Positions 43,581-64,000 of a DNA stretch of 64,000 bases are shown in pieces; position 1 is the first letter of the stretch, and the number at the start of each line of letters is the position of its first letter. The stretch comes from Sphingomonas phyllosphaerae FA2 (lineage in GTDB: Bacteria; Pseudomonadota; Alphaproteobacteria; Sphingomonadales; Sphingomonadaceae), in contig NZ_KE386571.1 in NCBI RefSeq assembly GCF_000427645.1, positions 1,663,676 through 1,727,675 of the forward strand, written 5' to 3'. The position numbers and the translations under genes were made by a program. The notes under the pieces are model-generated. The model was not told where the DNA came from. It saw only the letters and a list, made by a program, of their open reading frames with translations, and ran no database searches.

Positions 43581-44530
43581 TCGTCGTCATCTACCCGGCC
43601 AGAAATCGGTCGAGCGCTGCGGAAGGGCCGCTAACAGGGAAGCTGTTACCGGGTTGTTAAGCGCGTCGCACCCGAGTCCCCGGTAGGTCTGTATGGATGG
43701 CCACCAAAGCCATAGTCTGGCTGGGCCTCTTGCGCACGCCAGCTTCGGCGACCGGGCTGCTGGCGGTTGCCGCGGGACTGCTCTGGCTTGCGGGTTGTCG
43801 CGCGGGCTCCAGGGTGACGCAGGTAACGGCTATGCTGCTGATCGAACTGCGCGCAGGCCTGCCCGGGGTGCTGTCAAAACAACTGCACATGGCCAATTGA
43901 AGGCGAGCTTCTTGCCCGTCTGCCTGCTGTTTGGCAGGCAAACGCGGGCCGACCTCGGGAAATACCAAGCAAGCTCGCAGCACTGACAGCGGAGCCAGCG
44001 TAGCTCAGGCGAGCGAAAACACCAACCCTGCGCGGCTCTCGAGCGAGCCGGTACGTTGGCTCGACAGTACCTGGCACGCCATCAGCAGGTGCATAACGTG
44101 CGTCCAGCAATCTCCACCAACGATCATTAGCCGCATAGCTTGGCGATCTGCGATGGTCAGAAGCGCTGCCGCTCCTGATGAGGCGGGCAACGTGACCATC
44201 GTACCATCCTGACGAGGGCCGATTGCCCTCCTACGCCGTCCATTGCAAGTCGCGGTGACAGGTCGTTCGAGCGCTGTTCCCAGCGCAGTTCGCGGCCGAA
44301 GAGCAGCCGGCAGCGGCCGTCTACGGCATCTTCAGCAACGAGTTCGCGCTATCGTTGCTCATTTCCCCAACGCCATCGAGGAGAGCATTTTTTCCAACCT
44401 ACGGCCGCGGTGTGACTTGTCCGACACGGTCATGAATTATCTTTAGGAGGTCAGCCTTTGTGAGTTTCACCCCCGCGAAGTCGTGACTAATGTCGGACTA
44501 ATAAGCGGAAATTCCCGCGTGGAGAGGTTC
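43581..44530. other. 950-base divergent region without a convincing gene
   Basis: Lies between two divergent TonB receptor genes and must hold both promoters. Short frames (for example 43697-43900 and 44243-44446) lack ribosome-binding sites and match no family. AGGAGG at 44442-44447 is followed by GTG and an 8-codon frame, which could be a leader peptide. A GAGGGC/GCCCTC hairpin is at 44214-44230. The GC content is lower than in the flanking genes. Confidence 0.5.
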
Positions 44531-47212: not shown

Positions 47213-47253
47213 GACACGGCGCCGGTGCCCGGAATCTGACGAGAGGGACGACC

Positions 47254-48303
47254 ATGCCTCTGCTCCTCACTGCGCTGGCCATCGCGGCGGCATCGGCGCC
47301 GCTCGCGGAGGCGGCGCCGCAGGACACGCCCGCCGCGGCACCGGCGGGCGGCTTCAACGCGCGACTTGTGGGCGACATCGCGCCGGTCCACGATCCGGTC
47401 GTCATCCGAGAGGGCGACGTCTATTACGTCTTCTCGACCGGGATCGGCGAGGGCGGGCAGCGCATCCTGTCGTCGCGCACCTCGCGCGACCTCGTGACCT
47501 GGACCCGCGGGCGCGCACCGTTCGAGCGGCTGCCCGAGTGGGCGACAAAGGCGATCCCTGGCGCCAAGAACATGTGGGCGCCCGACATCAGCTACGTCAA
47601 CGGCCGCTACCGGCTGTATTATGCGGTGTCGACGTTCGGCTCGAACCGCTCGGCGATCGGGCTGGCGACCAGCGCCACGCTCGACCCCTCCAAGCCCGGC
47701 TACGGCTGGCGCGACGAGGGGCTGGTCGTGATGTCGGACGTGAAGGACGATTTCAACGCGATCGACGCCGCGTTCGTCGCCGATGCGCAGGGGCGCCACT
47801 GGCTGTCGCTCGGCAGCTTCTGGAGCGGGCTCAAGCTGTTCCGGCTCGATCCCACGACCGGCAAGCTGCTACACCCCGCCGAACGGCCGCGCGCCATCGC
47901 GTCGCGCAAGGTGCCGGCCGGCGCGCCCTCGATCATCGAGGCGCCCTATATCTTCGCGCACGGCGGCTATTACTGGCTGCTCGCCTCCTATGATTACTGC
48001 TGCAAGGGCGTGAACAGCACCTATTACACGGTGGTCGGCCGTTCCAAGGCGATCGAAGGCCCGTATGTTGGCAAAGATGGCAGCGCGATGCTGCAAGGGG
48101 GCGGCACTATGCTGCTACGCGCCGACTTGCGGGAAGAGCAGCGTTTCCGTGGTCCGGGCCACGCAGGTCATTTGCGTGACCGTGATGGAACCGACTTCCT
48201 CGTTTATCACGCGTACGATCGCGAAAAGAGCGGGGTGCCGACACTGCGCATAGTTGCGTTGGAATGGGGCGCCGACGGATGGCCGATCGCGAAAGGCCAG
48301 TGA
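47254..48303 (+). CDS. Exported glycoside hydrolase family 43 protein (arabinanase-like)
   Basis: 349 residues with Sec signal peptide (MPLLLTALAIAAASAPLAEA). Five-bladed propeller catalytic residues of GH43 are visible: Asp in PVHDPVVIREGDVYYVFSTG, Asp in MWAPDISYVNGRYRLYYAVS and the acid Glu in SIIEAPYIFAHGGYYWL. The motif set and YDYCCKGVNSTYY fit the endo-1,5-alpha-L-arabinanase-type branch (GH43 subfamilies 4-6). Downstream of a TonB receptor in the same direction, so likely one operon. Alternative substrates within GH43 cannot be excluded. Confidence 0.88.
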   Translation: MPLLLTALAIAAASAPLAEAAPQDTPAAAPAGGFNARLVGDIAPVHDPVVIREGDVYYVFSTGIGEGGQRILSSRTSRDLVTWTRGRAPFERLPEWATKAIPGAKNMWAPDISYVNGRYRLYYAVSTFGSNRSAIGLATSATLDPSKPGYGWRDEGLVVMSDVKDDFNAIDAAFVADAQGRHWLSLGSFWSGLKLFRLDPTTGKLLHPAERPRAIASRKVPAGAPSIIEAPYIFAHGGYYWLLASYDYCCKGVNSTYYTVVGRSKAIEGPYVGKDGSAMLQGGGTMLLRADLREEQRFRGPGHAGHLRDRDGTDFLVYHAYDREKSGVPTLRIVALEWGADGWPIAKGQ

Positions 48304-50271: not shown

Positions 50272-51729
50272 TCAGAGCGGTTGTCGTATAGTTAACGGCT
50301 TGTCTCGTGCAAGAGACACTATCAACTCTCCTAGAAGTCCGTTAGCCCAAGCAAACCATGGGCGGGTGAAGCGTGTTGGATCATCCTTATGGAATGTCTC
50401 GTGGATGAAGCCGGTATCCGCGTCAGTGTCGCGGATAGACTTGAGGCAGGCGCGGATCAGCGCATCGTCGCCGCTGGAGGCGGCGCGAACCAGCGTCGCC
50501 ATCGGCCAGATCAGGTCGAAGCCTGCATGCGGTCCGCCCAACCCCTCGCCGGCGCGGCCGCGGACGAACCATGGGTTACGCTCGCTCCACGCCGCCGCTT
50601 CGGTATGGCGCCACAGCGGATCGTCAGGCGCGGCGCAGCCGAGGAAAGCGAGACCCGAGAGCGACAGCTCGCAGCAATCGTCCATGAAGAGCGCATTGCC
50701 GAAGCCGTCGACCTCGAATGCCCAGACCTCGCTCCCGTCCGCCAGCCGCATGCGGCCGTGCGCAGCGAGTGCAGCCTCGATCTCCGCCGCCAGCGCGGCG
50801 GCGTCAGTAGCGAGCGCGGTGTCGCCGCGCGCCTCAGTCGCGACCACGGCTAGTTCACGTAGCGTGCGCGCGGCGAAGATGTTGGCTGGGATCAGGAACG
50901 GCAGGATCGTCGCATCGTCGGATGGGCGAAAGCTCGAGTGGATCAGGCCTACCTTCCGCGTGGGATTGCCGATGCTCCAAAGCTGCGTTTCGGTAGGCTG
51001 CACACTGCTGCGCTGGAAGCGGTATGAGCCAGAGTCGTCTCGGCGCTGCTGCTCACGGAAGGTGCGGACAATGGCGCGCGCCGACTGTGCCCACTCCGCG
51101 GTGAAGGGGGCTCGGTCCTTGGTCGCCCGCCAATAACTCGACGCGAGCCGGAGGACGTAGCAAAGCGAGTCCACCTCCCACTTCCGCTCCGCTACTCCGG
51201 GCTTCATTTCCGTCTGGTCGTGCTGTGACGAGTCCAAGTCGGTGCGCGCGGTCGGATCCTGCAGGAAGGCGTTGGCATATGGATCGATCAGGACGCAGCG
51301 CGCCTGCCGCGCGATCAGCCCGCGAAATAGCTTGGTCAGCGCCGGGTCGCTGGCTGCGAGATGGAGGTAAGGCCGCAATTGCGCCGAAGAATCGCGCAGC
51401 CATAGGCACGGAATATCGCCGGTGATGACGAAGGCATCGTCGTCGGTAACCGTTAGCACTGTCGTGTCGAGCGTGTTCGGATAGCAATTCTCGAACATCC
51501 ACGCGAGCTTGGGGTCTGCGATCAGCCGCTTTACGCGCACGATTTCGCGCTCGACCGCGGCGCTGTGGAAGCGCCGCTCTGATGGCGGCGGCCGCTTGGA
51601 TGGCCGCACCGGTGTCGCCGCCCAGGCGGGGAGAGTGGCGAGAGTGGCGAGTGTGGCAGGGGCGGCCAAGAGGGTACGCCGGCCGATGCTCGTCATTCCA
51701 CTTGGCCCGGTGCCGTGTCGATCGTCCAT
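50272..51729 (-). CDS. Exported GH125 exo-alpha-1,6-mannosidase (first copy)
   Basis: 485 residues with a twin-arginine-like signal (SIGRRTLLAAPATLATLATL). Family GH125 hallmarks: AWMFENCYPNTLDTTV, VITGDIPCLWLRDSSAQLRP, RKWEVDSLCYVLRLA, GLIHSSFRPSDDATILPFLI, WAFEVDGFGNALFMDD and GFIHETFHKDDPTRFTRPWF. GH125 enzymes release mannose from the non-reducing end of alpha-1,6-mannan with inversion. ATG 51729 is preceded by GAGAGGG. It is divergent from a second GH125 gene and shares its promoter region with it. Confidence 0.93.
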   Translation of the reverse strand: MDDRHGTGPSGMTSIGRRTLLAAPATLATLATLPAWAATPVRPSKRPPPSERRFHSAAVEREIVRVKRLIADPKLAWMFENCYPNTLDTTVLTVTDDDAFVITGDIPCLWLRDSSAQLRPYLHLAASDPALTKLFRGLIARQARCVLIDPYANAFLQDPTARTDLDSSQHDQTEMKPGVAERKWEVDSLCYVLRLASSYWRATKDRAPFTAEWAQSARAIVRTFREQQRRDDSGSYRFQRSSVQPTETQLWSIGNPTRKVGLIHSSFRPSDDATILPFLIPANIFAARTLRELAVVATEARGDTALATDAAALAAEIEAALAAHGRMRLADGSEVWAFEVDGFGNALFMDDCCELSLSGLAFLGCAAPDDPLWRHTEAAAWSERNPWFVRGRAGEGLGGPHAGFDLIWPMATLVRAASSGDDALIRACLKSIRDTDADTGFIHETFHKDDPTRFTRPWFAWANGLLGELIVSLARDKPLTIRQPL

Positions 51730-51810
51730 GCTTCACCCTCTCGTCTGCCGACGCCCGCTACATCGGCGCGCGCCGTCCTCGAAAGCACTAGCGTAGTTCC
51801 TTCGCAATAT

Positions 51811-51833
51811 TCCACCTACTTTCTTTTTTATTG
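51811..51833. promoter_or_regulatory. Candidate ROK operator, copy A
   Basis: TCCACCTACTTTCTTTTTT at 51811-51829 then ATTG, in the gap between the two divergent GH125 genes. The same 19 bases recur in the ROK regulator/transporter divergent gap at 54631. Confidence 0.55.
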
Positions 51834-51909
51834 TTGCGTTTCTGGCCTCGTGCCATATCGCACCCCCACAGGCCGATCGTTGCATCATAAGGCGGCATAG
51901 GAGAGAGAC

Positions 51910-53340
51910 ATGCATCCGACGCGACGCGCCGTAGTGAAAGGCGCTGCCGCGCTGACGGTGAGCACACCCCTTCCCGCCGCCGTTCCGGTCAACTTTAGCA
52001 GCCAGCGTCCGCCGTTGGCGAAGCGCCGGTTTGTCAGCGCCGCGGTGGAGCGCGAGCTCAGTCGTATCAAGGCGCGGATCGCCGACCCGGAACTCGCGTG
52101 GATGTTCGAGAACTGCTACCCCAACACGCTTGATACCACCGTTTTCACCGGCACGATCGACGACAAGCCCGATACGTTTGTGATTACCGGTGATATCGAC
52201 GCGATGTGGTTGCGTGACAGCGCGGTGCAGGTTGAGCCCTATCTCCATCTGGCCCGAAGTGACCGGCGACTGCGTGAGATGCTACACGGGCTGATCCAGC
52301 GGCAGGCGCGCTGCATCCTGATCGATCCTTATGCTAATGCTTTCGTGCGCGATCCCGGCGCGCGATCCAACCTTGATTCTGCCACCCTAGATGACACCGA
52401 GATGCGGCCCGGCGTGGCGCAGCGCAAATGGGAGATCGACTCGCTCTGCTACCCGATGCGGCTTGCGCACGATTATTGGGCGACTACCCGCGACCGCGCG
52501 CCGTTCGACGAGCTGTGGCGCCGCTCCGCCGCGCTGATCGTCGACACGTTACGCGTTCAGCAGCGCAAGGATTCGCCTGGCCCGTACCGATATCAGCGGC
52601 TCACCAAGATCCCGACCGACAGCCTGATGCTCGACGGCTATGGCCCACCCTCGAACAAGGTTGGGCTGATCCACTCAGCCTTCCGCCCCTCCGATGACGC
52701 CTGCGTTTACCCCTTTCTCGTACCCGCCAATTTGTTCGCGGTGTCGAGCCTGCGCCAAATCGCGCGCGTTCACCGCGAGGCGCGCGGCGACGTCGCCGCC
52801 GCGCGGGACGCGGAGGCGTTGGCGAACGAGGTTGAGGCGGCGCTCCGCAAACACGCGATCGTGCCCGACGGACGAGGCGGGCAGGTCTGGGCCTATGAAG
52901 TGGACGGATACGGCAACTGGCTGTTCGCCGACGACGCGGGCATCCCCAGCCTGTACGGTCTCCCGCTGATTGAGGCGGCGTCGGTCGACGACCCTCTCTA
53001 CCAACGCACCGCCGCGCTGGCGTGGAGCCCGCGTAATCCCTTCTTCGTGCAGGGCAGCGCTGCAAGCGGCATCGGCAGCCCGCACATGGGGCTCGACAAG
53101 GTGTGGCCGATGGCGATCATCGCTCGCGCGATGGTGACGCGCGATGAGGGCGTGGTGCGCGGATGCCTGCGCACGCTCAAGGCTACCCACGCCGGCACCG
53201 GCTTTATGCATGAATCCTTCCACAAGGATGATCCGGCGCGCTTTACGCGTGCCTGGTTCGCCTGGGTGAACGGCATGTTCGGGCAGATGATCGGCGCGGT
53301 TGCCGCGCGCTACCCGCAGCTGCTCGCCGAGCGCTTCTGA
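51910..53340 (+). CDS. Exported GH125 exo-alpha-1,6-mannosidase (second copy)
   Basis: 476 residues, Tat-like signal with TRRAVVKGAAALTV. Same GH125 motif series as its neighbour: AWMFENCYPNTLDTTVFTG, FVITGDIDAMWLRDSAVQ, RKWEIDSLCYPMRLA, VGLIHSAFRPSDDACVYPFL, VWAYEVDGYGNWLFADD, FMHESFHKDDPARFTRAWFA. One difference near the end is WVNGMFGQ where the first copy has WANGLLGE. GGAGAGAGAC precedes ATG 51910. Co-regulated with the divergent copy and, through the shared motif, with the porter operon. Confidence 0.93.
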   Translation: MHPTRRAVVKGAAALTVSTPLPAAVPVNFSSQRPPLAKRRFVSAAVERELSRIKARIADPELAWMFENCYPNTLDTTVFTGTIDDKPDTFVITGDIDAMWLRDSAVQVEPYLHLARSDRRLREMLHGLIQRQARCILIDPYANAFVRDPGARSNLDSATLDDTEMRPGVAQRKWEIDSLCYPMRLAHDYWATTRDRAPFDELWRRSAALIVDTLRVQQRKDSPGPYRYQRLTKIPTDSLMLDGYGPPSNKVGLIHSAFRPSDDACVYPFLVPANLFAVSSLRQIARVHREARGDVAAARDAEALANEVEAALRKHAIVPDGRGGQVWAYEVDGYGNWLFADDAGIPSLYGLPLIEAASVDDPLYQRTAALAWSPRNPFFVQGSAASGIGSPHMGLDKVWPMAIIARAMVTRDEGVVRGCLRTLKATHAGTGFMHESFHKDDPARFTRAWFAWVNGMFGQMIGAVAARYPQLLAERF

Positions 53341-53350
53341 GGCGCGCGAC

Positions 53351-54610
53351 TCAGTCGTTAGCGGAGAGGAAGACGAGATCGTTGAAGGGCAGGATCGCTG
53401 CGCCGACCGCGGGTGCATCGGCGGCGAGCTGCGCGGTCAGCACGGGCGCGGCGGGCACTACCGGATCGTCCACCGCGTCGCGGTGGCGCTCGATCGCTTC
53501 GGCGAGTTCGTCGATCAGCGGCACCGGCAGCCGTCCGCCGATTACGATCGCCCCGGGATCGATCAGACAGCTGATGGTGGCGATTGGCCCTGCCAGCGCC
53601 GCCGCGGCGCGCTCGATCCAGTTCCGGATCACCGCTCCCGCCGCGGCATCGGCGCTCGCCAATTTAGCAGGCGCGATCGGCGCGATACCGTGCGCGGCGA
53701 GATCGGCCTTGAGCGCCAAAAGCGAAACGACAGACTGGAGGGGCGCGCCGCAGCGGTCGTTCAGGAAGCCGATCCGCCCGGCGCGGCCGGTCGAACCGGG
53801 GTGGTAGTTGCCGGCCACGACCATGCCGCCACCCAGCCCTGCGGAGAGCAGAACGTAGAAGAAGCTTCGGTGCGTCAGCCCGCTGCCGAAGCGTGCCTCG
53901 CCGATCGCCGCCGCGGCCGCGTCGTTCTCGGGGATGATCGGCCATGTGCCGAGCGGCGCGAGAAGCGTGGGCAGGTCGACGCTGTCCCACTCGGCGTAGG
54001 CGCTCGGCAGGCCGGGCAAGTCGACGTGCCCCAGCCCGCCCGGCAGCGCAACGCCCATGCCGAGCACACGGTCGCGCTCGATGAGTCCTTCAGTCGATAA
54101 CGTGGCGATGGCGTCGCCGATGAAGGCGGTGACGGTCCGGGGCGCAGCGAAGTCGATCTCCTGCGTGTAGCGCGCACGCACCGCGCCGGTGAGATCGAGC
54201 GCGACGAACGTGACATGGTCTCGGTCGATGTTGACGCCGTAGCTGAAACAGCCATCGGGGTTCACCGCGAACCGGATCGCGGGCATGCCGCGCACGCCGG
54301 TGCGCCTCCCCTTCTCGAACACGAAACCTCGATCCGAGAGCCGCTGGGTTATGTTCGCGATCGCCGCAGGTGACAGGCCGGTCTGCTCCGCCAGCTGGAG
54401 CCGCGTCGACTCGCCCGCACGAAGGATCGCCTCGAGAACGAGGCGCTCGTTGCGCTCTCCCGCGCGCGCCGGGTTGGTGCCGTGCAGCGCGCGCTGGTCC
54501 GCCCCGTTCGCTCCCGTCGCATGAGATGGCAGGGGCAAGCAGTGTCTCCAAAAATCGGTTCCGGGGCTCGGGGAGCTTTCATTGGTAAACAGCGCGAGCG
54601 TCACGCACAA
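53351..54610 (-). CDS. ROK family transcriptional repressor
   Basis: 419 residues. N-terminal winged helix (NERLVLEAILRAGESTRLQL, TGLSPAAIANITQRL) followed by a ROK sugar-binding domain: YGVNIDRDHVTFVALDLTG, VALPGG, ENDAAAAAIGEARFG, AGLGGGMVVAGNYHPGSTGR and ISCLIDPGAIVIGG. This is the NagC/Mlc/XylR layout, so it should release DNA when bound to a sugar such as mannose. The start is uncertain; TTG 54610 is the most upstream candidate. Divergent from the porter operon and convergent with the second GH125 gene. Confidence 0.9.
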   Translation of the reverse strand: MCVTLALFTNESSPSPGTDFWRHCLPLPSHATGANGADQRALHGTNPARAGERNERLVLEAILRAGESTRLQLAEQTGLSPAAIANITQRLSDRGFVFEKGRRTGVRGMPAIRFAVNPDGCFSYGVNIDRDHVTFVALDLTGAVRARYTQEIDFAAPRTVTAFIGDAIATLSTEGLIERDRVLGMGVALPGGLGHVDLPGLPSAYAEWDSVDLPTLLAPLGTWPIIPENDAAAAAIGEARFGSGLTHRSFFYVLLSAGLGGGMVVAGNYHPGSTGRAGRIGFLNDRCGAPLQSVVSLLALKADLAAHGIAPIAPAKLASADAAAGAVIRNWIERAAAALAGPIATISCLIDPGAIVIGGRLPVPLIDELAEAIERHRDAVDDPVVPAAPVLTAQLAADAPAVGAAILPFNDLVFLSAND

Positions 54611-54630
54611 TCACCCGCCTAATTTAAACT

Positions 54631-54653
54631 TCCACCTACTTTCTTTTTTTATT
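54631..54653. promoter_or_regulatory. Candidate ROK operator, copy B
   Basis: TCCACCTACTTTCTTTTTT at 54631-54649 then TATT: identical over 19 bases to the sequence at 51811. It lies just upstream of the repressor gene and 152 bases before the porter ATG. TTGACG at 54653-54658 may be a -35 element. Confidence 0.55.
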
Positions 54654-54804
54654 TGACGCCTACGCTGCTTCGGAGGAAAGGTCCGTCACTGCCCCGATCG
54701 CGGCGCGCCCCTAAAAGGGGTGACACAAAGCGCGACACGGCGAGGCAGGAGGGAGAGGGCGTCGCGATCGCACCGCGTCGCTCCTGGTTGGGGAGGAGCG
54801 TGCC

Positions 54805-56142
54805 ATGAGCAGAGTAGCGCTGCGACCGCGCCTATTGTTCTCCGCTTTCGTGATCTCGCTCTCCGGGCTGCTCTTCGGCTTTGACACTGCGGTGATCGCC
54901 GGCGTTACTACCGCGTTGCGCGCGCAGTTCGGCCTTTCGCCCGCTGCGCTCGGCGCGACGGTATCGTCCGCGCTGCTCGGCACGATGGTCGGCGCCGCGG
55001 TGGCAGGCGTATACGGCGACCGTCGCGGCGCGCGCGCCGGGCTGCGGCTCGCCGCCGCGCTCTACCTCGTCTCGGGCCTTGGTTGTGCATTGGCGTGGGA
55101 CTGGGGTGCGCTGATCCTGTTCCGCGTCATGGCCGGCGTCGCGATCGGCGCCTCGTCGGTGCTCGCGCCGGTCTATCTCGCGGAGGTGGCTCCTCCCGCG
55201 CACCGCGGCGCCATCGTCGGCACCTTCCAAGTCAGTATCGTCACTGGCATCCTGCTTGCCTACGCCAGCAACGCCGCAGTAGGCGCGTTGCTGGCGGACG
55301 CGGCGACGGCGTGGCGGTGGAAGCTTGGCCTTACCGCTATTCCTGCCGCACTGTTCCAGTTGTTGCTCGTCGCGGTGCCCGACAGCCCGCGCTGGTTGAT
55401 GCTGCGCGGTCGCCGCGATGAGGCTGCGATCGCAGCGCTGCTGCTCCACGGCGACACTGCGGTGGATGTCCCCCCTGTCCCAACGGTCCGGGCAGTGTCG
55501 CTGGCGTCGCTATGGCGCGAGGCGCCGCGGCCATTGATCCTCGCGATCGTTCTGGGTGCGCTCAATCAGCTCACCGGCATCAACGCCATACTCTATTATC
55601 TGAACGACATCTTCGCGGCGGCCGGGTTCCGCCAGGTCTCTGCTGACCTACAGGCAATCGCGGTCGGTGCGTCCAACCTTGTTTTCACGCTAATTGGCAT
55701 GGCGCTGATCGACCGGCTGGGCCGCCGCCCCCTTCTCCTTGTCGGCAGCGCCGCAATGGCGATGTTGCTGCTCGCGGCGACCGCGATCATGCTCGGCCTC
55801 CTGCCGCGCGCGCTGATGCTGGCGGTGCTGGTCGGCTTCATCGCCGCCTTCGCTACCTCGCAAGGCGCGGTGATCTGGGTGTACCTAAGCGAGATCTTTC
55901 CGGCCCACGCGCGCGCCGCAGGCCAGGCCCTAGGCGCAGGCACGATATGGTTGTTCGACGCCCTGGTCGCCGCGATCTTTCCTGTCGCTGCCTCTTCGTC
56001 GCCGGCTGCACCCTTCATGTTTTTTGCGGCATGCATGGCAGCGCAGTGCTTGCTGGTGTTCCGCTGGTTCCCTGAAACACGGGGCGCATCACTAGAGCAA
56101 ATCGAGCGACAGATGCGCGGCCACGCGGAGCCGGTGCGATGA
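54805..56142 (+). CDS. MFS sugar porter (probable mannose uptake)
   Basis: 445 residues, twelve predicted membrane helices. Sugar-porter signatures are present: GLLFGFDTAVIAG in helix 1, GDRRGAR in loop 2-3, PVYLAEVAPPAHRG at helix 4-5, QLTGINAILYYLNDIF in helix 7, DRLGRRPLLL in loop 8-9 and PETRG near the end. It would import monosaccharide by proton symport across the inner membrane. Its stop overlaps the next ATG by 4 bases. First gene of the mannan operon, behind the candidate ROK operator. Confidence 0.92.
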   Translation: MSRVALRPRLLFSAFVISLSGLLFGFDTAVIAGVTTALRAQFGLSPAALGATVSSALLGTMVGAAVAGVYGDRRGARAGLRLAAALYLVSGLGCALAWDWGALILFRVMAGVAIGASSVLAPVYLAEVAPPAHRGAIVGTFQVSIVTGILLAYASNAAVGALLADAATAWRWKLGLTAIPAALFQLLLVAVPDSPRWLMLRGRRDEAAIAALLLHGDTAVDVPPVPTVRAVSLASLWREAPRPLILAIVLGALNQLTGINAILYYLNDIFAAAGFRQVSADLQAIAVGASNLVFTLIGMALIDRLGRRPLLLVGSAAMAMLLLAATAIMLGLLPRALMLAVLVGFIAAFATSQGAVIWVYLSEIFPAHARAAGQALGAGTIWLFDALVAAIFPVAASSSPAAPFMFFAACMAAQCLLVFRWFPETRGASLEQIERQMRGHAEPVR

Positions 56143-57068
56143 CCGCTTATCTCGCGGTCGACGTCGGCGGCTCTCATATCGCTTGCGCGCGCGTGCGCAG
56201 CGGCACGATCGAGGGCCGACGCGAGATCCGGCTCGCTGCGCCGACCACGTTGGCAGCCGTGCTGCCAGTGCTGGAGGCACATCTGACGGCGCTGCACGGG
56301 AGCGAACTCGCCGCGGGCGTTTCGATCGCTTTCCCCGGCCTGGTCGACCCGCGCTCCGGGCGCGTGGTCTCAACCCCGGCGGGCAAGTTCGAAGACGCGG
56401 TCGGCTTCGATTTCTCCGGTTGGGCGAGCGAGCGGCTGAGCCTCCCAGTGCGACTTGAGGTCGACGGCCGCATGGCGCTGCTTGGTGAGCATCATTACGG
56501 CGCGCTCCGTGATGCCGACGACGCGGTGCTTCTCAGCCTTGGCACCGGGATCGGGTCGGCCGCGCTGATGCAAGGCGCGGTGGTGCGCGGGCGCAGCGGG
56601 CATGCCTCGGTGCTCGGCGGCCATCTTACCGTTGCGATCGACGGCCCGACTTGCCTCTGCGGCAATGTCGGCTGCGCCGAGGCGCTGGCGTCGAGCTGGG
56701 CGCTGCCGCGACTGATTGCGGCCCTGCCGCGGCGCGGCGCGCTCCACGACCTCGCCGCGACCAACCTTAAGGCGGTGTTCGACCTTGCACGCGGCGGGGA
56801 CGAGGGTGCAGTCGCGGTGCGCGGCGGCTGCCTGGCCGCCTGGGCGGCGGCCGCGCTCAACCTGGTCCACGCTTATGACGCAACACGCGTGCTGGTCACA
56901 GGAGGGGCCGCCGCGGCACCGGAGGTGGTGCCATTTATTCAGGCGCATCTGCGGCACCACGCCTGGTGCCTAGGCGAACCGCCGCTGGTGCTTCGCGGCG
57001 CGCTCGGCGCTGAAGCCGCGCTGCTCGCCGCCACACCGCTGTGGGAGACCCATCGTGACCAACTATGA
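56139..57068 (+). CDS. ROK family sugar kinase (probable mannokinase/fructokinase)
   Basis: 309 residues without DNA-binding domain. ATP-binding LAVDVGGSHIACARV, catalytic Asp in LEVDGRMALLGEHHYGA, GTGIGSAALMQGAVVRGRSG, and the ROK zinc-binding segment GPTCLCGNVGCAEAL. The usual NDANAAALGE signature is modified (VDGRMALLGE), though the Asp is kept. In an operon with a porter and phosphomannose isomerase it most likely makes mannose-6-phosphate. It overlaps the next gene by 14 bases. Confidence 0.9.
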   Translation: MTAYLAVDVGGSHIACARVRSGTIEGRREIRLAAPTTLAAVLPVLEAHLTALHGSELAAGVSIAFPGLVDPRSGRVVSTPAGKFEDAVGFDFSGWASERLSLPVRLEVDGRMALLGEHHYGALRDADDAVLLSLGTGIGSAALMQGAVVRGRSGHASVLGGHLTVAIDGPTCLCGNVGCAEALASSWALPRLIAALPRRGALHDLAATNLKAVFDLARGGDEGAVAVRGGCLAAWAAAALNLVHAYDATRVLVTGGAAAAPEVVPFIQAHLRHHAWCLGEPPLVLRGALGAEAALLAATPLWETHRDQL

Positions 57069-58779
57069 CAAGTGGCCGGTCGTTCGCGTCGATGACGCGG
57101 CGGATGCCTGCATGCTCGGGTGGGACGTCATCCTGCCGCACCTCGCCGCTGCGGGCGATCTCTGCGTAGAATGCTATCCCGGCGCGCCCGTCGGGGCGAT
57201 CGTCGCGGTGCTGCGCGGGGCCTGGCCCGAGGCGGACGTGGTCGACACCGCCGTGCTGTTCCGCGATCCCAAGGTGATCGACGCGGAGATCGACGCGTTG
57301 CTCGGCGACGATCCGGTTTTCGCTCGCTTCCCGTCCGTCGGCATTGCCGACTTCCTTGACGGGGCGAAGGTCGCGGCGTGGCGCGCGGGGCGCGTGCCGG
57401 GGCGTCGCACGGTCCTCGTCGGCCCGGGCGCCGCGACCGTCCTGCCCGCGCGCGACCTGCTGGTCTATGTCGCCATGGCGCGCTGGGAGCTCCAGCAGCG
57501 CCAACGCCGCGGCGAGATCGCCAATCTGGGCGGGAGCGACCGCGGAGCGCGCGCGGCAGAGCTCTACCGCCGCGCCTTCTTCGTCGATTGGCGGGTCGGT
57601 GACACGGTCAAATATACGCTGCTTTCCGAAGCCGACTTTGTCATGGAGGCGAATGGGTCGGTGCCGCGGATGATCGCGGGTTCGACCTACCATTGCGCGC
57701 TCGACGAGGTTGCCGCGCGCCCGTTCCGCGTTGTGCCCTTCTTCGACGCCGGACCGTGGGGCGGGCAGTGGATGCGGCGTACCTTCGACCTGCCCGAGGG
57801 CCCACCCAATTATGCCTGGTGCTTCGACTGCGTCCCCGAGGAGAACAGCCTGCTGCTCGGCTTCGGCGAGGAGGCTTTCGAGCTCCCTGCGCTCGACCTC
57901 GTGCGCCTCCGCCCTGACGCACTGCTCGGCGCCGACATAGTCGCGCGCTTCGGTGCCGAATTCCCGATCCGCTTCGATCTGCTTGACACGATGGAAGGGG
58001 GCAACCTCTCGCTCCAGGTCCACCCGCGCGCCGACTATGCGCGAGCTGCCTTCGGCCTGGCCTACACCCAGGACGAGAGCTATTACCTGCTCGACGCGGG
58101 CGCCGACGCCTGCGTCTATCTCGGGCTTACCGACGCGGCCGAGCCCGACGCCGTCGCCGCCGCGCTCACCGCGGCACAAGCGGGTGGGCTCGCGCCGGAC
58201 GTCGACGCTGTGGTCAACCGCGTGCCCGCGCGGGCGCACGACCATTTTCTCATCCCTGCCGGCACCGTCCACTGCTCCGGGCGCGACGCGATGGTGCTCG
58301 AGATCAGCGCCACGCCATACATCTTCACCTTTAAGCTGTGGGACTGGGGCCGCCTCGGGCTCGACGGTCGCCCGCGCCCGATCCACCTCGAGCACGGCCT
58401 CGCCAACATCGACTGGACGCGGCGCGAAGCGGTGACGCGCACCGAGCTGGTGAACCAGCTTACCCCGGTCACGCACGGGAGCGACTGGCGCCGCGAGCGC
58501 ACCGGGCTCCACCCGCTCGAGTTCATCGAGACAGAGCGCGCCTGGTTCGAGACGAGCGTCGAGCTGGACACAGCAGGCACGCTCAACGTCCTCAATCTCG
58601 TCGCCGGTGCCGCGGCGGTAGTGGAGAGCCCGAGCGAAGCGTTCGCGCCATTCGAGGTACATTATGCCGAGACCTTCGTCATTCCGGCGGCGCTCGGCCG
58701 CTACCGGCTGCGCTCGCTTGGACCGCCGGGCGCTGCCTGCGCGGTGATGCGCGCCTGGGTGCGCCCGACTGATCAATAA
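57055..58779 (+). CDS. manA: Type I mannose-6-phosphate isomerase with N-terminal extension
   Basis: 574 residues, longer than a minimal ManA (about 390). The C-terminal 370 residues carry the cupin-type zinc isomerase: AGPWGGQWMRRTFDLPEG, GGNLSLQVHPRADYARAAFG, TQDESYYLLDAGADA and HDHFLIPAGTVHCSGRDAMV, giving the expected Gln/His/Glu/His zinc ligands. The first 190 or so residues (GWDVILPHLAAAGDLCVECY, RRTVLVGPGAATVLPARDLL) resemble the nucleotide-kinase-like extension found in long Bacteroidetes-type isomerases. Converts mannose-6-phosphate to fructose-6-phosphate, feeding glycolysis. Confidence 0.9.
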   Translation: MTNYDKWPVVRVDDAADACMLGWDVILPHLAAAGDLCVECYPGAPVGAIVAVLRGAWPEADVVDTAVLFRDPKVIDAEIDALLGDDPVFARFPSVGIADFLDGAKVAAWRAGRVPGRRTVLVGPGAATVLPARDLLVYVAMARWELQQRQRRGEIANLGGSDRGARAAELYRRAFFVDWRVGDTVKYTLLSEADFVMEANGSVPRMIAGSTYHCALDEVAARPFRVVPFFDAGPWGGQWMRRTFDLPEGPPNYAWCFDCVPEENSLLLGFGEEAFELPALDLVRLRPDALLGADIVARFGAEFPIRFDLLDTMEGGNLSLQVHPRADYARAAFGLAYTQDESYYLLDAGADACVYLGLTDAAEPDAVAAALTAAQAGGLAPDVDAVVNRVPARAHDHFLIPAGTVHCSGRDAMVLEISATPYIFTFKLWDWGRLGLDGRPRPIHLEHGLANIDWTRREAVTRTELVNQLTPVTHGSDWRRERTGLHPLEFIETERAWFETSVELDTAGTLNVLNLVAGAAAVVESPSEAFAPFEVHYAETFVIPAALGRYRLRSLGPPGAACAVMRAWVRPTDQ

Positions 58780-58813
58780 GACGATAGCAACGACAAGAAA
58801 GCAGGGGAGGATA

Positions 58814-61603
58814 ATGATGATTCAGTTGAACCAGCTCGCGCGGACCTCCGCACTCGCGCTCGCTGCAACCTCGCTATGGCCGGCCGCGGCCGTGGCGCAG
58901 GAGGCGCCGCCCGCGGTGCCGCAGGGCCAGGCGCCGGTTGAGGCCGGGCCGCCGGCCGCGGCGGACGGCGCGGTCGCCGCGGCGCCGAGCTCGGACGACA
59001 TCGTCGTCACCGGGCTACGCCGCAGCCTCCAAACCGCACAGGCGCTCAAGCGTGACTCCGACCAGATCGTCGACGCGGTGGTCGCCGAGGACATCGGCAA
59101 GCTGCCCGACAACAACGCCTCAGAGGCTTTGGCGCGGATCACCGGCGTGCAGGTCAACCGCAGCAGCGACGAGGCCGGCGGCGTGCAGGTGCGCGGCCTG
59201 CCCAATCTCACCACGACCTACAACGGCCGCGAGATGTTCACCGCCGAGCTGCGCAACGTCGCGCTGCAGGATTTCCCCGCTGGCGCGCTTGCCGGACTGG
59301 AGGTGTACAAGACCACGAGCGCCGATCTGATCGAGGGCGGCATTGCCGGCCTGATCAACGTGCGCTCGCGCCGCCCGTTTGACTTTGACGGCTTCCAGAT
59401 CGCAGGCGCGGTGCGCGGTACCTACGGCGACCAGGCGCGCAAGTACGACCCTAACTTCAACGTGCTGGTGACCGACCGCTGGGACACCGCAATCGGAGAG
59501 CTGGGCGCGCTGGTCAACGTGTCCTACACCCAGCTCCACTATTTGACCTCGTCGCGCTACATCAACGGCAACATCGTCAGCCCGGGCGCGAACCAGCTGG
59601 TGGACGGCGCGCGCGACTTCGTGCTGCCCGAGAGCGCCGGCGTCTATTACGATCGCGGCAAGCGCTGGCGGCCGTCGGTCAACGGCACGCTTCAGTGGCG
59701 GCCCGCCCCCAACCTCGAATTCTACGTCGATGGCCTCTTCCAAGGCGCACGGACGGACGTGGCCAACGACTTTGCGGGCTTCAACCTGGTCGCCGACAAT
59801 CCGGCGCTGAGCAACATCCTACGGAATGTCGCTGAGCCGGGGACACTCGAGAGCGTCACCGTCACCCCGGATTTCGCCAACGGCCGGGGCATCGACTTCT
59901 CGCGCAGCACGCGCGCGGGGCGCACCAACGCCTATCAGGGCGCGATCGGCGGATCGTGGAAGACAGGCCGCGCAACGCTGACGACGGATTTCGCCTACAC
60001 CGACTCCAAGGCCGAATATACCGACTATAACATCGACTTCGCACCGGCGACCGCACAGTCCGCCAACCTCGTCTTTGACATCGGCGGTCAGGACGGTGGC
60101 GCCCAGTTCGGTCTGCCCGGCTTCGCCGCCAACGATCCCAACAGCTATATCCTGCGCGGCATCTACGACCGCCGCTCGCTGGCGACGGGCAAGGGCATCC
60201 AGTGGCGCGTCGACCTCAAGCTCGACACCGAACTACCCGTGATCACCCAGCTCGATTTCGGATTCCGCCTGACCGATCGCGACGCGCGCCTGCAGAGCGG
60301 CGGCCGCTACGCCACGCTGCGCCCGCTCCGCCTGCGCCTTTCCGACATTCCCGGCGGTGACACCGGCACGCCGATCGACCGCGGCTTTCGCGGCGGTCAG
60401 GCTCCTGGGCTAAGCCAATGGTACGCGCCGACCCGTTCAGGAATCGTCGACAATATCGAGGCGTTGCGCGATCTCGCCCGCAGCGGGCTGGAGCAGATCG
60501 GCACCCCCGCCGCGCTGACTGAGCGAGCGCTGTGGAACTCCGACATCCCCGCCTACGTCCAGAACGAGCGGCTTGACGCGTTGGAGAAGTCCTACGCCGT
60601 TTACGGCCAGTTCCACTACGGCTTCGACTTGGGCGGCGTGCCGATCGACGGCGTGGTCGGCGCAAGGATCGTCAACACCAAGGCGCAGCTGACCGGCAAT
60701 GCGCTGGTCGGCGGCTTGCTTGAGACAACCACGTCGCGGCAGAACTATGTCGACGTACTTCCCAGCGCCTCATTCCGCGCCAAGTTCACCGATCAGCTCC
60801 AGCTGCGCCTCTCGGCGACCGAGACGCGTACCCGGCCCGAGTACAACCAGCTTAACCCAGCGACAACGATCGCGAACCCCGGCGCTTCGCTGATCACCGG
60901 GAGCAGCGGCAACATCAACCTCCAGCCGATCCTGTCGACCAACTATGACGCGTCGTTGGAATGGTATTTTTCCAAGACCGGGTCGCTAACCGGGGCGATC
61001 TTCCGCCGCGACGTGCAGGGCTTCATCACCAATCTTAACAGCCAGGTCGACCTTGGCTATCCCACGCTCGTGACGGTCAACCGGCCCGAGAACGGCGGCA
61101 AGGGCCGCTTGCAGGGGGCGGAAGTGGCGTTCCAGACCTTCTTCGACTTCCTGCCCGGCGTGCTGAGCGGCTTCGGCACCCAACTCAACGCCACCTACAT
61201 CGACGCGTCGCAGGCACTGCCGCTGGTGCTCGGCGACACCGGGCAGGACAGCGACATTCCAGGCGTGTCGAAGTGGAGCTACAACGCGGTCGGGATCTAC
61301 GAGAAGGGTCCGGTGTCAGCGCGATTGGCTTACAATTGGCGCTCTCGCGTGACCAACTTCTTCGCCACCGACAACGCCGGCCAGCTGATCGGCGCCGAGT
61401 TCAACCGCCCGATCGAGCGGCTGGACTTCTCGCTGTCAGTCGCCGCGATCGAGGCGGTGACGCTGACCTTCGACGTCAGCAACATCACCGGCTCGCCCTA
61501 TCGTGCGCTGCGCGCGGTACCGGGGCTGGCCAACGCGAGCTACCCGCGCGACGTCCGCTATGAGAGCCGTGTCTTCGCGCTCGGCGCGCGGTTCCGCTTC
61601 TGA
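58814..61603 (+). CDS. TonB-dependent receptor of the mannan operon
   Basis: 929 residues; AGGGGAGG 5 bases before ATG 58814. Signal peptide ending AAAVAQE, an Ala/Pro-rich linker, then the Caulobacter-type plug (DDIVVTGLRRSLQTAQALKR, VVAEDIGKLPDNNASEALAR, VQVRGLPNLTTTYNGREMFT). The barrel ends LGARFRF. Strongly related to the receptor at 44531. As the only outer-membrane transporter in this operon it should import alpha-mannan oligosaccharides. The stop shares a base with the GH76 start (TGATG). Confidence 0.92.
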   Translation: MMIQLNQLARTSALALAATSLWPAAAVAQEAPPAVPQGQAPVEAGPPAAADGAVAAAPSSDDIVVTGLRRSLQTAQALKRDSDQIVDAVVAEDIGKLPDNNASEALARITGVQVNRSSDEAGGVQVRGLPNLTTTYNGREMFTAELRNVALQDFPAGALAGLEVYKTTSADLIEGGIAGLINVRSRRPFDFDGFQIAGAVRGTYGDQARKYDPNFNVLVTDRWDTAIGELGALVNVSYTQLHYLTSSRYINGNIVSPGANQLVDGARDFVLPESAGVYYDRGKRWRPSVNGTLQWRPAPNLEFYVDGLFQGARTDVANDFAGFNLVADNPALSNILRNVAEPGTLESVTVTPDFANGRGIDFSRSTRAGRTNAYQGAIGGSWKTGRATLTTDFAYTDSKAEYTDYNIDFAPATAQSANLVFDIGGQDGGAQFGLPGFAANDPNSYILRGIYDRRSLATGKGIQWRVDLKLDTELPVITQLDFGFRLTDRDARLQSGGRYATLRPLRLRLSDIPGGDTGTPIDRGFRGGQAPGLSQWYAPTRSGIVDNIEALRDLARSGLEQIGTPAALTERALWNSDIPAYVQNERLDALEKSYAVYGQFHYGFDLGGVPIDGVVGARIVNTKAQLTGNALVGGLLETTTSRQNYVDVLPSASFRAKFTDQLQLRLSATETRTRPEYNQLNPATTIANPGASLITGSSGNINLQPILSTNYDASLEWYFSKTGSLTGAIFRRDVQGFITNLNSQVDLGYPTLVTVNRPENGGKGRLQGAEVAFQTFFDFLPGVLSGFGTQLNATYIDASQALPLVLGDTGQDSDIPGVSKWSYNAVGIYEKGPVSARLAYNWRSRVTNFFATDNAGQLIGAEFNRPIERLDFSLSVAAIEAVTLTFDVSNITGSPYRALRAVPGLANASYPRDVRYESRVFALGARFRF

Positions 61604-62760
61604 TGGCGGCGCGACCCACGCGCCGAGCGTTCGTCGGCGGCGCGCTGGCGCTCGCCGGCGCGCGCGGGACGGCGGCGCCCGTATCTGCCCCCGCCCCCAG
61701 CGCGCGCGCGCTCGCCTGGCACGCGGCGCTGGAGAAGGCCTTCGCGGTCGGCGACGGCACCGGGCTCTACCGCGAGTACCACCCGCCCCGACCCGGCGAC
61801 GAACGTTACTCGACCGAGTGGCCCTTCTCGCAGGCGCATGTCGCGCTCCTCGACCTCGCGATGATGCCGGGAGCCGCGGGGCGACGCTTCGTACCCGCGC
61901 TCGCCAAGGTGCGCGCGGCGCAACAGCGTTACTGGTCGACGACCTCGACCACCGGGGTCGCCGGTCACCTCGCCAAGGTGGTGGCGCCGCTCGGCCACGG
62001 CGACGACCTCTATTACGACGACAACATGTGGGTGGGGCTCGCCGAGGTGCAGCACCATCTCTTCCGCCGCGACGCCGAGTCGCTGCGCCGCGCGCGCGCG
62101 ATCTTCGCGCTGATCCGCTCGGGCTGGTCCGAGGAGAAGGGACTGCCCGCGCCCGGCGGGGTGGTGTGGACGCAGAAAAGCGACAACGGCGACCGCAACA
62201 CCGTGTCGAACATGCCCGCGGCCGAGCTCGGCGTGCGGCTGTACCTGATCACGCGCGAGCGCGCCTATCTCGACGACGCGTTGCGCTACTATCGCTGGAC
62301 TAACGCGACGCTGCAGCGCCGCGACGGCCTCTACGCCGATCATATCAAGCGTGACGGCACGATCGAGCCGCGCGTGTGGAGCTACAACCAGGGCGTACCG
62401 GTAGGCGTCAACGTGCTGCTGTGGCGCGCCACCGGTGAGGCGCTCTACCTCGTCGAGGCGCGTCGCATCGCCGAGGCGAGCCGTGAGCAGCTCGTCAAGA
62501 GCGAACAGGTCGACGATCAGCCGCCGCCCTTCAATGCAATCTATTTCAAGAACCTGCTGCTGCTCGCCGACGCGACGCGCGACCGCCGCGACCTCGACGC
62601 GATGCGCGGCTACGCGGACCGCATGTGGCGCCGCCGACGCAACGCCGCCGGGCTCGTCCAGTTCGCGGGCCGCCGCGCCGAGTTGATCGACACTGCCGCG
62701 CTCGTACAGGTGGAATCTGTGTCGGCGTGGCGGCCGGCTGATTGGGCATCGCTGTACTGA
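61603..62760 (+). CDS. Exported GH76-like endo-alpha-1,6-mannanase
   Basis: 385 residues with Tat-like signal (PTRRAFVGGALALAGARG). The alpha6/alpha6-barrel of GH76 is indicated by the catalytic Asp pair in LYYDDNMWVGLAEVQHHLF, and by GGVVWTQKSDNGDRNTVSNM, LYADHIKRDGTIEPRVWSYN and QGVPVGVNVLLWRATGE. GH76 enzymes cut internal alpha-1,6-mannosidic bonds in fungal mannan backbones. Translationally coupled on both sides (TGATG junctions with the receptor and the SGNH gene). Confidence 0.9.
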   Translation: MAARPTRRAFVGGALALAGARGTAAPVSAPAPSARALAWHAALEKAFAVGDGTGLYREYHPPRPGDERYSTEWPFSQAHVALLDLAMMPGAAGRRFVPALAKVRAAQQRYWSTTSTTGVAGHLAKVVAPLGHGDDLYYDDNMWVGLAEVQHHLFRRDAESLRRARAIFALIRSGWSEEKGLPAPGGVVWTQKSDNGDRNTVSNMPAAELGVRLYLITRERAYLDDALRYYRWTNATLQRRDGLYADHIKRDGTIEPRVWSYNQGVPVGVNVLLWRATGEALYLVEARRIAEASREQLVKSEQVDDQPPPFNAIYFKNLLLLADATRDRRDLDAMRGYADRMWRRRRNAAGLVQFAGRRAELIDTAALVQVESVSAWRPADWASLY

Positions 62761-63557
62761 TGCGCGGCGCCGTTGCGCTGCTCGCGCTCGCCGCCGCCCC
62801 CGGCGCGCTGCCCGAGGGCTCGACCTATGTGGCACTCGGCAGTTCCTATGCGGCTGGCGCGGGCATCGGGCCGCTCGCCCCGTCGGCGCCGGTACGCTGT
62901 GGCCAGACGGTCAACAACTACCCCCGACTGGTTGCTGCGCGGCTCCACCTCGACCTCGTCGACGCGAGCTGCGGCGGCGCCACCACCGAGCATCTGCTTC
63001 ACGCCTGGGACGAGTTACCCGCGCAACTCGACCGCCTCACCCCGACGACCAAGTTGGTGACGGTAACAATCGGGGGCAACGACGTGCATCTCGTCGGCGA
63101 TCTCGCCCGCGCCGAGTGTGCAGTCAGGCGCAATGGGGCAGCCGTGCGTTGCGGTCGCCCCCCTGCTCCGACCGCGACGGAATGGACCCGCCTTGAACGC
63201 AATTTCGCCGAGGTGGCATGGGAAGTGCGGCGCCGGGCGCCGAGCGCCAGGCTCATCGTAGTCGATTATCTCGACATGCTTCCAACGCGACCCTGCGCCT
63301 CCATCCCCTATGACGCGACAGCGCTCGCGAGCGCGCGCGCGACCTTCCGCCGCCTCGCACGAGTGACCGCCGAAATTACACGACGCGAGCACGCGACGCT
63401 GCTGCGCGCCGGAGCGCTGTCGCGCGGGCACGATTCCTGTGCGGCCCAGCCCTATGCAGTCGGGCGCCCGGCAGTTGGAACGTCGTGGCACCCGACGGCT
63501 GCGGGACATGCCGCAGTAGCCGCAGCAATCGTACGCCTTCTTGTTGAAACGACCTGA
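62760..63557 (+). CDS. Exported SGNH/GDSL hydrolase
   Basis: 265 residues; signal peptide MRGAVALLALAAAPGALPEG. SGNH blocks: nucleophile Ser in YVALGSSYAAGAGIGPLAPS, Asn in VTVTIGGNDVHLVGD, and catalytic His in VGTSWHPTAAGHAAV. Six cysteines in the mature part suggest disulfides in the periplasm. This lipase/acetylesterase-like type could remove acyl groups from mannan or mannoprotein. Last gene of the operon, joined to GH76 by a TGATG overlap. Confidence 0.88.
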   Translation: MRGAVALLALAAAPGALPEGSTYVALGSSYAAGAGIGPLAPSAPVRCGQTVNNYPRLVAARLHLDLVDASCGGATTEHLLHAWDELPAQLDRLTPTTKLVTVTIGGNDVHLVGDLARAECAVRRNGAAVRCGRPPAPTATEWTRLERNFAEVAWEVRRRAPSARLIVVDYLDMLPTRPCASIPYDATALASARATFRRLARVTAEITRREHATLLRAGALSRGHDSCAAQPYAVGRPAVGTSWHPTAAGHAAVAAAIVRLLVETT

Positions 63558-63930: not shown

Positions 63931-64000
63931 ATGAGGAAGCTCGCGATCGTAACTGCAGCGTTGGCTGGAACATCGGTAGGACCGTTGACTGCTGCGCAGA
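63931..64000 (+). CDS. Start of an exported protein, cut by the window end
   Basis: ATG 63931 has GAGAGGA 5 bases upstream and begins a signal peptide (MRKLAIVTAALAGTSVGPL then TAAQ). Only 23 residues are visible, so the product cannot be identified; an exported or outer-membrane protein is likely. Confidence 0.6.
   Translation, partial: MRKLAIVTAALAGTSVGPLTAAQ

Follow-up and report, generated by a model that had tools for sequence, protein, structure and literature searches.

Organization of the locus

We analyzed a 64-kb stretch of DNA from Sphingomonas phyllosphaerae FA2 (contig NZ_KE386571.1, positions 1,663,676 to 1,727,675 of the forward strand), hereafter the window, whose numbering is used for all positions, and within it a putative alpha-1,6-mannan utilization locus at 50272-63557. 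The nine genes of this segment were run against Pfam and NCBIfam. Two glycoside hydrolase (GH) family 125 genes are transcribed apart from a shared gap (51730-51909), and a ROK-family repressor gene and a six-gene operon point away from a common gap at about 54539-54804. The operon encodes, in this sequence, a major facilitator superfamily (MFS) sugar porter, a ROK kinase, a phosphomannose isomerase (PMI)-like protein, a TonB-dependent receptor, a GH76 protein and a GDSL hydrolase. An earlier note on this DNA had proposed that six genes are joined between 54805 and 63557, and the plus-strand genes found there indeed overlap their neighbours or are separated by a 34-bp gap. The set of genes it had listed within 13 kb (two GH125, one GH76, a ROK kinase, an MFS porter, a TonB receptor and a ROK repressor) agrees with the Pfam matches; the profile search that it had suggested for GH125 and GH76 gave strong matches to both families, all above curated cut-offs. 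Promoter and terminator scans revealed no excess over shuffled sequences.

50272-51729, minus strand: GH125a, exo-alpha-1,6-mannosidase homologue with a twin-arginine-type N-terminus (PF06824, E 2.4e-141, 471.8 bits against a cut-off of 23.4)
51910-53340, plus strand: GH125b, exo-alpha-1,6-mannosidase homologue, divergent from GH125a (PF06824, E 1.5e-151, 505.4 bits against a cut-off of 23.4)
53351-54538 (open frame to 54610), minus strand: ROK-family repressor with a winged helix-turn-helix (PF00480, E 8.9e-24; HTH_24, E 2.4e-6)
54805-56142, plus strand: MFS sugar porter, probable mannose uptake (PF00083, Sugar_tr, E 1.1e-96)
56139-57068, plus strand: kinase-like protein of the ROK family, probably a hexose kinase whose sugar pocket is altered (PF00480, E 9.9e-39)
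57055-58779, plus strand: PMI-like protein of 574 amino acids, PMI class I-like over residues 222-447, with an N-terminal region of unknown function (1qwr, E 6.6e-11)
58814-61603, plus strand: TonB-dependent receptor, probable mannan/mannooligosaccharide importer (TIGR01782, E 3.7e-177, 591.3 bits against a cut-off of 310)
61603-62760, plus strand: GH76, endo-alpha-1,6-mannanase homologue with a twin-arginine-type N-terminus (PF03663, E 1.2e-29, 104.4 bits against a cut-off of 25.9)
62760-63557, plus strand: GDSL/SGNH hydrolase with a signal-peptide-like N-terminus, role unknown (PF13472, E 5.3e-23)

Putative backbone hydrolases and receptor

Both GH125 proteins match the family model over its full length. 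Comparison with solved structures paired GH125a with 2p0v, the structure of BT3781 (E 8.3e-142, motifs FRPSDDA and HETFHKDD retained), and GH125b with 3on6 (E 1.6e-148) and 2p0v (E 2.7e-148). The FRPSDD, HE(S/T)FHKDD and FTR motifs of both proteins line up with 2p0v, the roles of the catalytic Asp, the water-coordinating Glu and the Arg being those given in PMC9425025 (this and the other papers cited are represented by excerpts). In the alignment across loci, GH125a was set against the GH125b homologues of the relative loci described below, and paralogues are thus compared in those rows. GH76 could be aligned to 16 distinct solved sequences, including 4mu9 and 4c1s, several of which are named alpha-1,6-mannanase. 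Two adjacent catalytic aspartates are the criterion for this family (PMC9213526), and the pair D139-D140 is kept in all 61 aligned rows. As judged by these alignments, the catalytic residues of GH76 and of both GH125 proteins are intact.

GH76, GH125a and GH125b carry twin-arginine-type N-termini and no obvious lipobox in our reading of the sequences, and the three enzymes therefore look periplasmic; the Pfam TAT model matches a third GH125 of the genome. With a single GH76 seemingly located in the periplasm, long chains would need to pass through the receptor. The receptor gene adjoins GH76 in all 15 relative loci labelled Sphingomonas. The earlier note had described this receptor as lacking a SusD partner, and none was found among the 16 open reading frames (ORFs) scanned in 35469-63557, short ORFs and the remainder of the genome being outside this search; within the same scope, the SusC/SusD pair of a Bacteroidota-type polysaccharide utilization locus (PUL) does not occur at the locus.

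Probable mannose porter, kinase and isomerase-like proteins

Among solved structures, the porter matches GlcP (4lds, E 1.3e-62) and the D-xylose-proton symporter XylE (about 1e-61). The assignment to the MFS sugar porters made in the earlier note is thus maintained, and the proton coupling that it added may be read only from the likeness to XylE and GlcP. The ROK kinase, besides its match to PF00480, contains the CxCGxxGCxE motif and the catalytic Asp, which we take to be the marks of a ROK kinase. The PMI-like protein has no Pfam match at 0.001 (PF20511 reaches only E 0.074) and was recognized through 1qwr, a PMI, over residues 222-447. Its His-Glu-His set (H323, E341 and H406), presumably the metal ligands of a class I PMI, aligns with that of 1qwr and is invariant in 10 of 10 rows, corresponding to the window and nine of the ten type A loci defined below (L029 was not aligned). 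For these two proteins, remote PMI likeness and ROK membership stand, but both are divergent in sequence and the labels of phosphomannose isomerase and sugar kinase had been put too strongly.

Neither family nor fold searches explained residues 1-220 of the PMI-like protein. Two AlphaFold models, built with only 10 similar sequences, had mean predicted local distance difference test scores (pLDDT) of 46.1 and, for residues 1-225, 58.6; Foldseek with predicted residues 1-225 returned nothing at E ≤0.001. Among the 50 rows listed, most were P-loop nucleoside/nucleotide kinases (E 0.01-0.13, root-mean-square deviation >10), from which we draw no conclusion. The sixth operon gene, left unlabelled in the earlier note, encodes the GDSL hydrolase, whose best solved likeness is phospholipase A1 (4hyq, 2e-13) and whose start is probably the ATG at 62760 rather than at 62742.

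A repeated box in both divergent intergenic regions

A TTG near 54538 is the probable start of the repressor, given that the homologous protein in the relative locus L020 begins at residue 25 of the window protein. The repressor lacks the usual CxCGxxGCxE motif, and its effector may therefore be unusual. A 20-bp box is found as two exact copies, one in each divergent intergenic region:

51810-51829, plus strand: TTCCACCTACTTTCTTTTTT, candidate operator box in the gap separating the two GH125 genes, exact repeat of 54630-54649
54630-54649, plus strand: candidate operator box again, in the gap separating the repressor and the operon, exact repeat of 51810-51829

No match to the 20-bp box was obtained in 100 shuffles. 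Its 15-bp core occurs exactly at two places only in the 3.92-Mb genome, both inside the mannan locus. The box is also conserved in relatives: allowing ≤2 mismatches, six of the ten type A loci have it 5' of GH125b (L022 being cut there) and seven have it 5' of the MFS gene. It was seen with 5 mismatches in both places in L026, and in one place only in L027 and L028. These observations make the box a good candidate operator for the ROK repressor. A second short conserved element, approximately CGTG(A/T)CACA, was noticed 3' of the box in both intergenic regions (54650-54804 and 51830-51909) in many type A relatives.

Relatives of the locus in Sphingomonas

Scanning genome contigs with the window GH76 yielded 61 loci, 15 labelled Sphingomonas and 46 others. 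Ten of the 15 named loci (type A, L020-L029) follow the window order GH125b-repressor-MFS-kinase-PMI-receptor-GH76, with a GDSL gene after GH76 in seven; a whole-genome search found the divergent GH125 pair in all ten of these genomes. The genomes of the other five (type B, L030-L034) have one or two GH125 matches elsewhere. Separately, a GFO/IDH/MocA oxidoreductase and a 3-keto-disaccharide hydrolase were seen beside the receptor-GH76 pair in two type B loci (L030:4838-7023 and L031:4526-6768), a hint of an oxidative glycoside route. Of 295 genomes of the genus, 17 have GH76; in an even sampling of the family it was present in 1 of 298, namely the genome of the window itself.

In a third layout (type C, L127 and L128, from two of these 17 genomes), a receptor, a ROK repressor, GH76, one GH125, an MFS porter and a ROK kinase occur in a different order. 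The type C receptor is distant (28%), the ROK repressor is 45% identical, and L128 has a short PMI-like gene straight after the kinase. Because the same functions have been assembled repeatedly, in types A and C, the porter, the kinase and, less firmly, the PMI-like protein can be tied to mannose use; this is the best argument for their role. At least three arrangements within one genus thus combine GH76 with receptors, further hydrolases and mannose catabolism.

Of the 46 loci outside Sphingomonas, four (L048, L051, L052 and L068) have a GH125 in the fetched stretch, and none, at the thresholds used, has the window's receptor, kinase or PMI. In a GH76 tree from which 3 of 64 rows were dropped (L076, L079 and L080, segments ≤250 residues), the 18 sphingomonad rows form one group (SH-like approximate likelihood ratio test, SH-aLRT, 99), whose nearest relatives are Actinobacteria. 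Acquisition of GH76 from Actinobacteria is only suggested, since the joining branches are unstarred (88-94) and the tree was built by a quick method with a midpoint root.

Side-chain enzymes elsewhere in the genome

The earlier note had found no GH92, GH38 or GH99 and concluded that the substrate would be debranched mannan or short alpha-1,6-mannooligosaccharide, unless helpers lie elsewhere. The second option is the one that held: the genome encodes three GH125 and four GH92 matches, and the four GH92 and the third GH125 lie outside the locus. Together with a furanosidase-type GH2 gene at 63931, described below, they rule out that side-chain enzymes are absent. The genome search gave no match for GH38; the one for GH99 matched none of the control genomes and says nothing on its absence. 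The third GH125 clusters with GH29, GH92, GH3, GH20, a TonB receptor, a phosphotransferase system (PTS)-type EIIBC and phosphoenolpyruvate-utilizer genes (C1:430-452 kb; L017 and L018), a cluster which looks like one for N-glycan use. Two GH92 genes have GH20, GH43 and two receptors in their vicinity, one receptor being split across two open frames, and another GH92 gene neighbours an AraC regulator, a receptor and a lectin. GH92 was found in all 15 named GH76-bearing genomes, where the matches include fragments of single genes. The idea of GH92 as a specific partner of GH76 was dropped as weak (17/17 versus 222/278 genomes, p 0.05).

Proposed function and alternatives

Taken together, the gene content, the intact catalytic residues and the conserved linkage indicate that the locus very probably allows Sphingomonas to import and degrade the alpha-1,6-linked mannan found in fungal cell walls. 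Passage across the outer membrane would be provided by the TonB receptor, for fragments of alpha-1,6-mannan or for longer chains in soluble form. Once in the periplasm, the backbone would be cleaved at its alpha-1,6 linkages by the single GH76, and the two GH125 would free mannose from the chain ends; the MFS porter would then take this mannose into the cytoplasm. There, the ROK kinase would phosphorylate mannose, and the PMI-like protein would yield fructose-6-phosphate. The ROK repressor would act through the two copies of the 20-bp box, one in each divergent promoter region. The GH92 enzymes encoded elsewhere could remove side chains, perhaps with the adjacent GH2.

Several observations weigh against this proposal. 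The five type B loci hold only the receptor and GH76, with an MFS gene in three (46-48% identical to the window porter), and no GH125, kinase or PMI was found alongside. In the type A kinases, the motifs that we assume to be the usual sugar contacts are changed, NDAN to VDGR and ExGH to L(G/A)GH, in 11 of 11 rows, and phosphorylation of mannose is therefore plausible rather than firm; the type C kinases retain NDAN and EWGH (2 of 2 rows). The PMI-like protein falls below the cut-offs of NCBIfam manA (TIGR00218, 25.5 versus 116.2 bits) and Pfam PF20511 (13.6 versus 22 bits), as does the short PMI of L128 (53.6 bits in NCBIfam, 15.9 bits in Pfam), and in L127 the kinase is followed by a sulfatase, with no PMI. 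With ≤2 mismatches, the box core has four genome sites, the same number as a reversed control, and the genome-wide core search found no exact copy at the GH2 or GH92 genes. Finally, GH92 is so common in the genus (239 of 295 genomes) that its presence says little.

We also considered other substrates. The locus might serve high-mannose N-glycans or mannose-capped oligosaccharides generally, with GH76 as a minor helper, given that GH125 and GH92 also act on N-glycans (PMC10154615) and that the genome has the GH29/GH92/GH125/GH3/GH20 cluster with a TonB receptor and PTS-type EIIBC. That separate cluster, however, already suits N-glycans, and the 16 window ORFs scanned include no GH92, GH20, GH18, GH85 or GH29, GH76 being the sole endo-enzyme; we regard this explanation as improbable. 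Still less credible is a bacterial alpha-1,6-mannan, such as actinobacterial lipomannan, with the GDSL protein as a deacylase. The resemblance of the latter to a phospholipase A1, its coupling to GH76 in the window and in most type A loci, and the actinobacterial affinity of the GH76 group speak for it. Yet the GDSL gene was not found in the three remaining type A loci, in type B or in type C, its specificity is unreadable from sequence, and the link to lipomannan is conjectural.

A different refinement concerns the gene following the operon, which starts 373 bp beyond it and crosses the window edge; its membership of the locus is conjectural:

63931-65901 (63931-64000 in the window), plus strand: GH2 of 656 amino acids, galactofuranosidase/arabinofuranosidase-like (7sf2, 1.9e-154; 9j6n, 4e-135)

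Rather than yeast mannan, the true substrate could be a fungal mannan decorated with furanose, either a galactomannan bearing galactofuranose or the debranched core of such a galactomannan, GH2 stripping the furanose before GH76 and GH125 act. The GH2 protein is closest to 7sf2, of unnamed function, then to the beta-D-galactofuranosidase 9j6n/9j6m and to 7xyr (3.7e-80), the other listed structures being at 2e-22 or weaker; neither NCBIfam nor Pfam settles its activity. Group III of the family (GH2_18/19) includes the structures 9J6M and 7XYR and has an NE motif, 9J6M belonging to GH2_18 with furanosidase activities (PMC12243196). The NE motif of our protein lies in VVNNEGWGQ, and its best match, 7sf2, is given no subfamily in the excerpts of that paper. 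ORF1110, a GH2 galactofuranosidase from the same Streptomyces strain as 9J6M, although not equated with the crystallized protein, releases galactose from Aspergillus galactomannan (PMC4560423). A Salegentibacter alpha-mannan PUL also contains one GH2, most like a GH2 arabinofuranosidase (PMC9213526).

The distribution of the gene agrees with this. Both rearranged type C loci have, beside the receptor, a GH2 with which it shares 74% identity, and a close GH2 (≥74%, a limit picked after viewing the list of 55 genomes) was found in 11 of 17 GH76 genomes versus 2 of 278 others of the genus (p 3e-14). Eight of those 11 are close kin; when they are collapsed to one, the counts become 4/10 versus 2/278 (p 1.1e-5). 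The concentration of the close GH2 in GH76 genomes suggests that furanose-decorated mannan may be the substrate. However, a 59-68% paralogue is widespread, one or the other being present in 55 of 295 genomes (15/17 versus 40/278 when all 55 are counted). GH2 matches none of the 15 named loci, and it lies on a different contig from GH76 in all seven near relatives having it. In one of these (L161), where neighbours were scanned by Pfam, it is near a halogenase and another receptor, and in L128:2254-10150, L164:8652-15413 and L165:1-8342 it accompanies sulfatases and a TonB receptor, a hint of another substrate. No exact box core precedes it, the uncharacterized 7sf2 is a closer match to it than 9j6n is, and group III has one other known activity, alpha-L-arabinofuranosidase. 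Because of the separate contigs and the halogenase and sulfatase company, we offer furanose-decorated mannan as a tentative rival refinement, not as a verdict.

A broader scheme also seems possible to us, albeit doubtful: some Sphingomonas would practise a dedicated, selfish uptake of furanose-decorated fungal alpha-mannan unlike the Bacteroidota model. It would combine a SusD-less receptor taking long chains, backbone cutting by periplasmic enzymes exported through the twin-arginine translocation (Tat) pathway, debranching by a GH2 galactofuranosidase, and one ROK repressor with a private two-site regulon over hydrolases and mannose catabolism. This set of functions would have been assembled at least twice in the genus.

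Comparison with known systems

The type of pathway favoured here, fungal alpha-1,6-mannan degradation, is already known from gut and marine bacteria, and the Sphingomonas locus is a variation on it. In Bacteroides thetaiotaomicron growing on yeast alpha-mannan, GH76 makes the endo-cuts, GH125 trims the backbone and GH92 removes the side chains, GH99 and a GH76 acting first at the cell surface (PMC10154615). The same division of labour between GH76 plus GH125 and GH92 would apply in Sphingomonas, and the window GH125 proteins match BT3781. Unlike that system, as far as it is described in the excerpts, the Sphingomonas receptor has no SusD beside it, the single GH76 is seemingly periplasmic, GH38 has no match, the locus includes an MFS-kinase-PMI branch and a ROK repressor, and GH92 is unlinked. 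The PUL of Salegentibacter sp. (PMC9213526) likewise has one GH76, a GH125 and one furanosidase-like GH2, with GH92 in the genome. It is made of about 30 linked genes, including six GH92 and GH43, whereas the alphaproteobacterial locus is compact, with two GH125 and with GH92 elsewhere. GH76, GH125, GH92 and GH38 were reported together in lichen Acidobacteriaceae (PMC11542873). GH76 with GH125 is shared with Actinobacteria, Chloroflexota and Acidobacteriaceae, but at the thresholds used the window's receptor, kinase and PMI are in none of the 46 loci outside Sphingomonas.

Proteobacterial use of related glycans is represented by an N-glycan cluster of Xanthomonas, which we assume to contain TonB receptors. 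That cluster (PMC10154615) and the X. manihotis GH125 (PMC9425025) resemble our system in the use of glycans by GH92/GH125, but GH76 is not mentioned in the excerpts of these papers, and in Sphingomonas the N-glycan-like cluster is a separate locus.

Alpha-mannan use has been detailed for Bacteroidota in the literature excerpted here. No Sphingomonas alpha-mannan, GH76 or GH125 locus is described in the titles or abstract openings of the open-licence papers that our searches brought up, which does not in itself prove novelty. Sphingomonads share leaves, soil and lichens with fungi. A compact SusD-less locus with a private regulatory box would offer a simple genetic system for the proteobacterial use of polymers from fungal walls, and the link to GH2 leads to a specific prediction on galactofuranose-bearing mannans.

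Surroundings of the locus

A TonB receptor and a GH43 gene (44483-48303) apparently form a separate arabinan module adjoining the mannan locus. The GH43 (47254-48303) is of the arabinanase type (1wl7, 2.1e-81), and for this reason it and the receptor at 44483 were not counted as part of the locus. An IS240-type DDE transposase lies at 39652-40368 on the minus strand, and related DNA, 87-92% identical, is found on the far side of the locus at window-equivalent positions 73071-74913 (C1); with such DNA flanking both sides, the region may in the distant past have been transferred as a unit. Past the mannan locus, a 910-amino-acid protein with TIR and tetratricopeptide domains (L019:5585-8317, window-equivalent 67909-70641) is possibly encoded by a defence gene.

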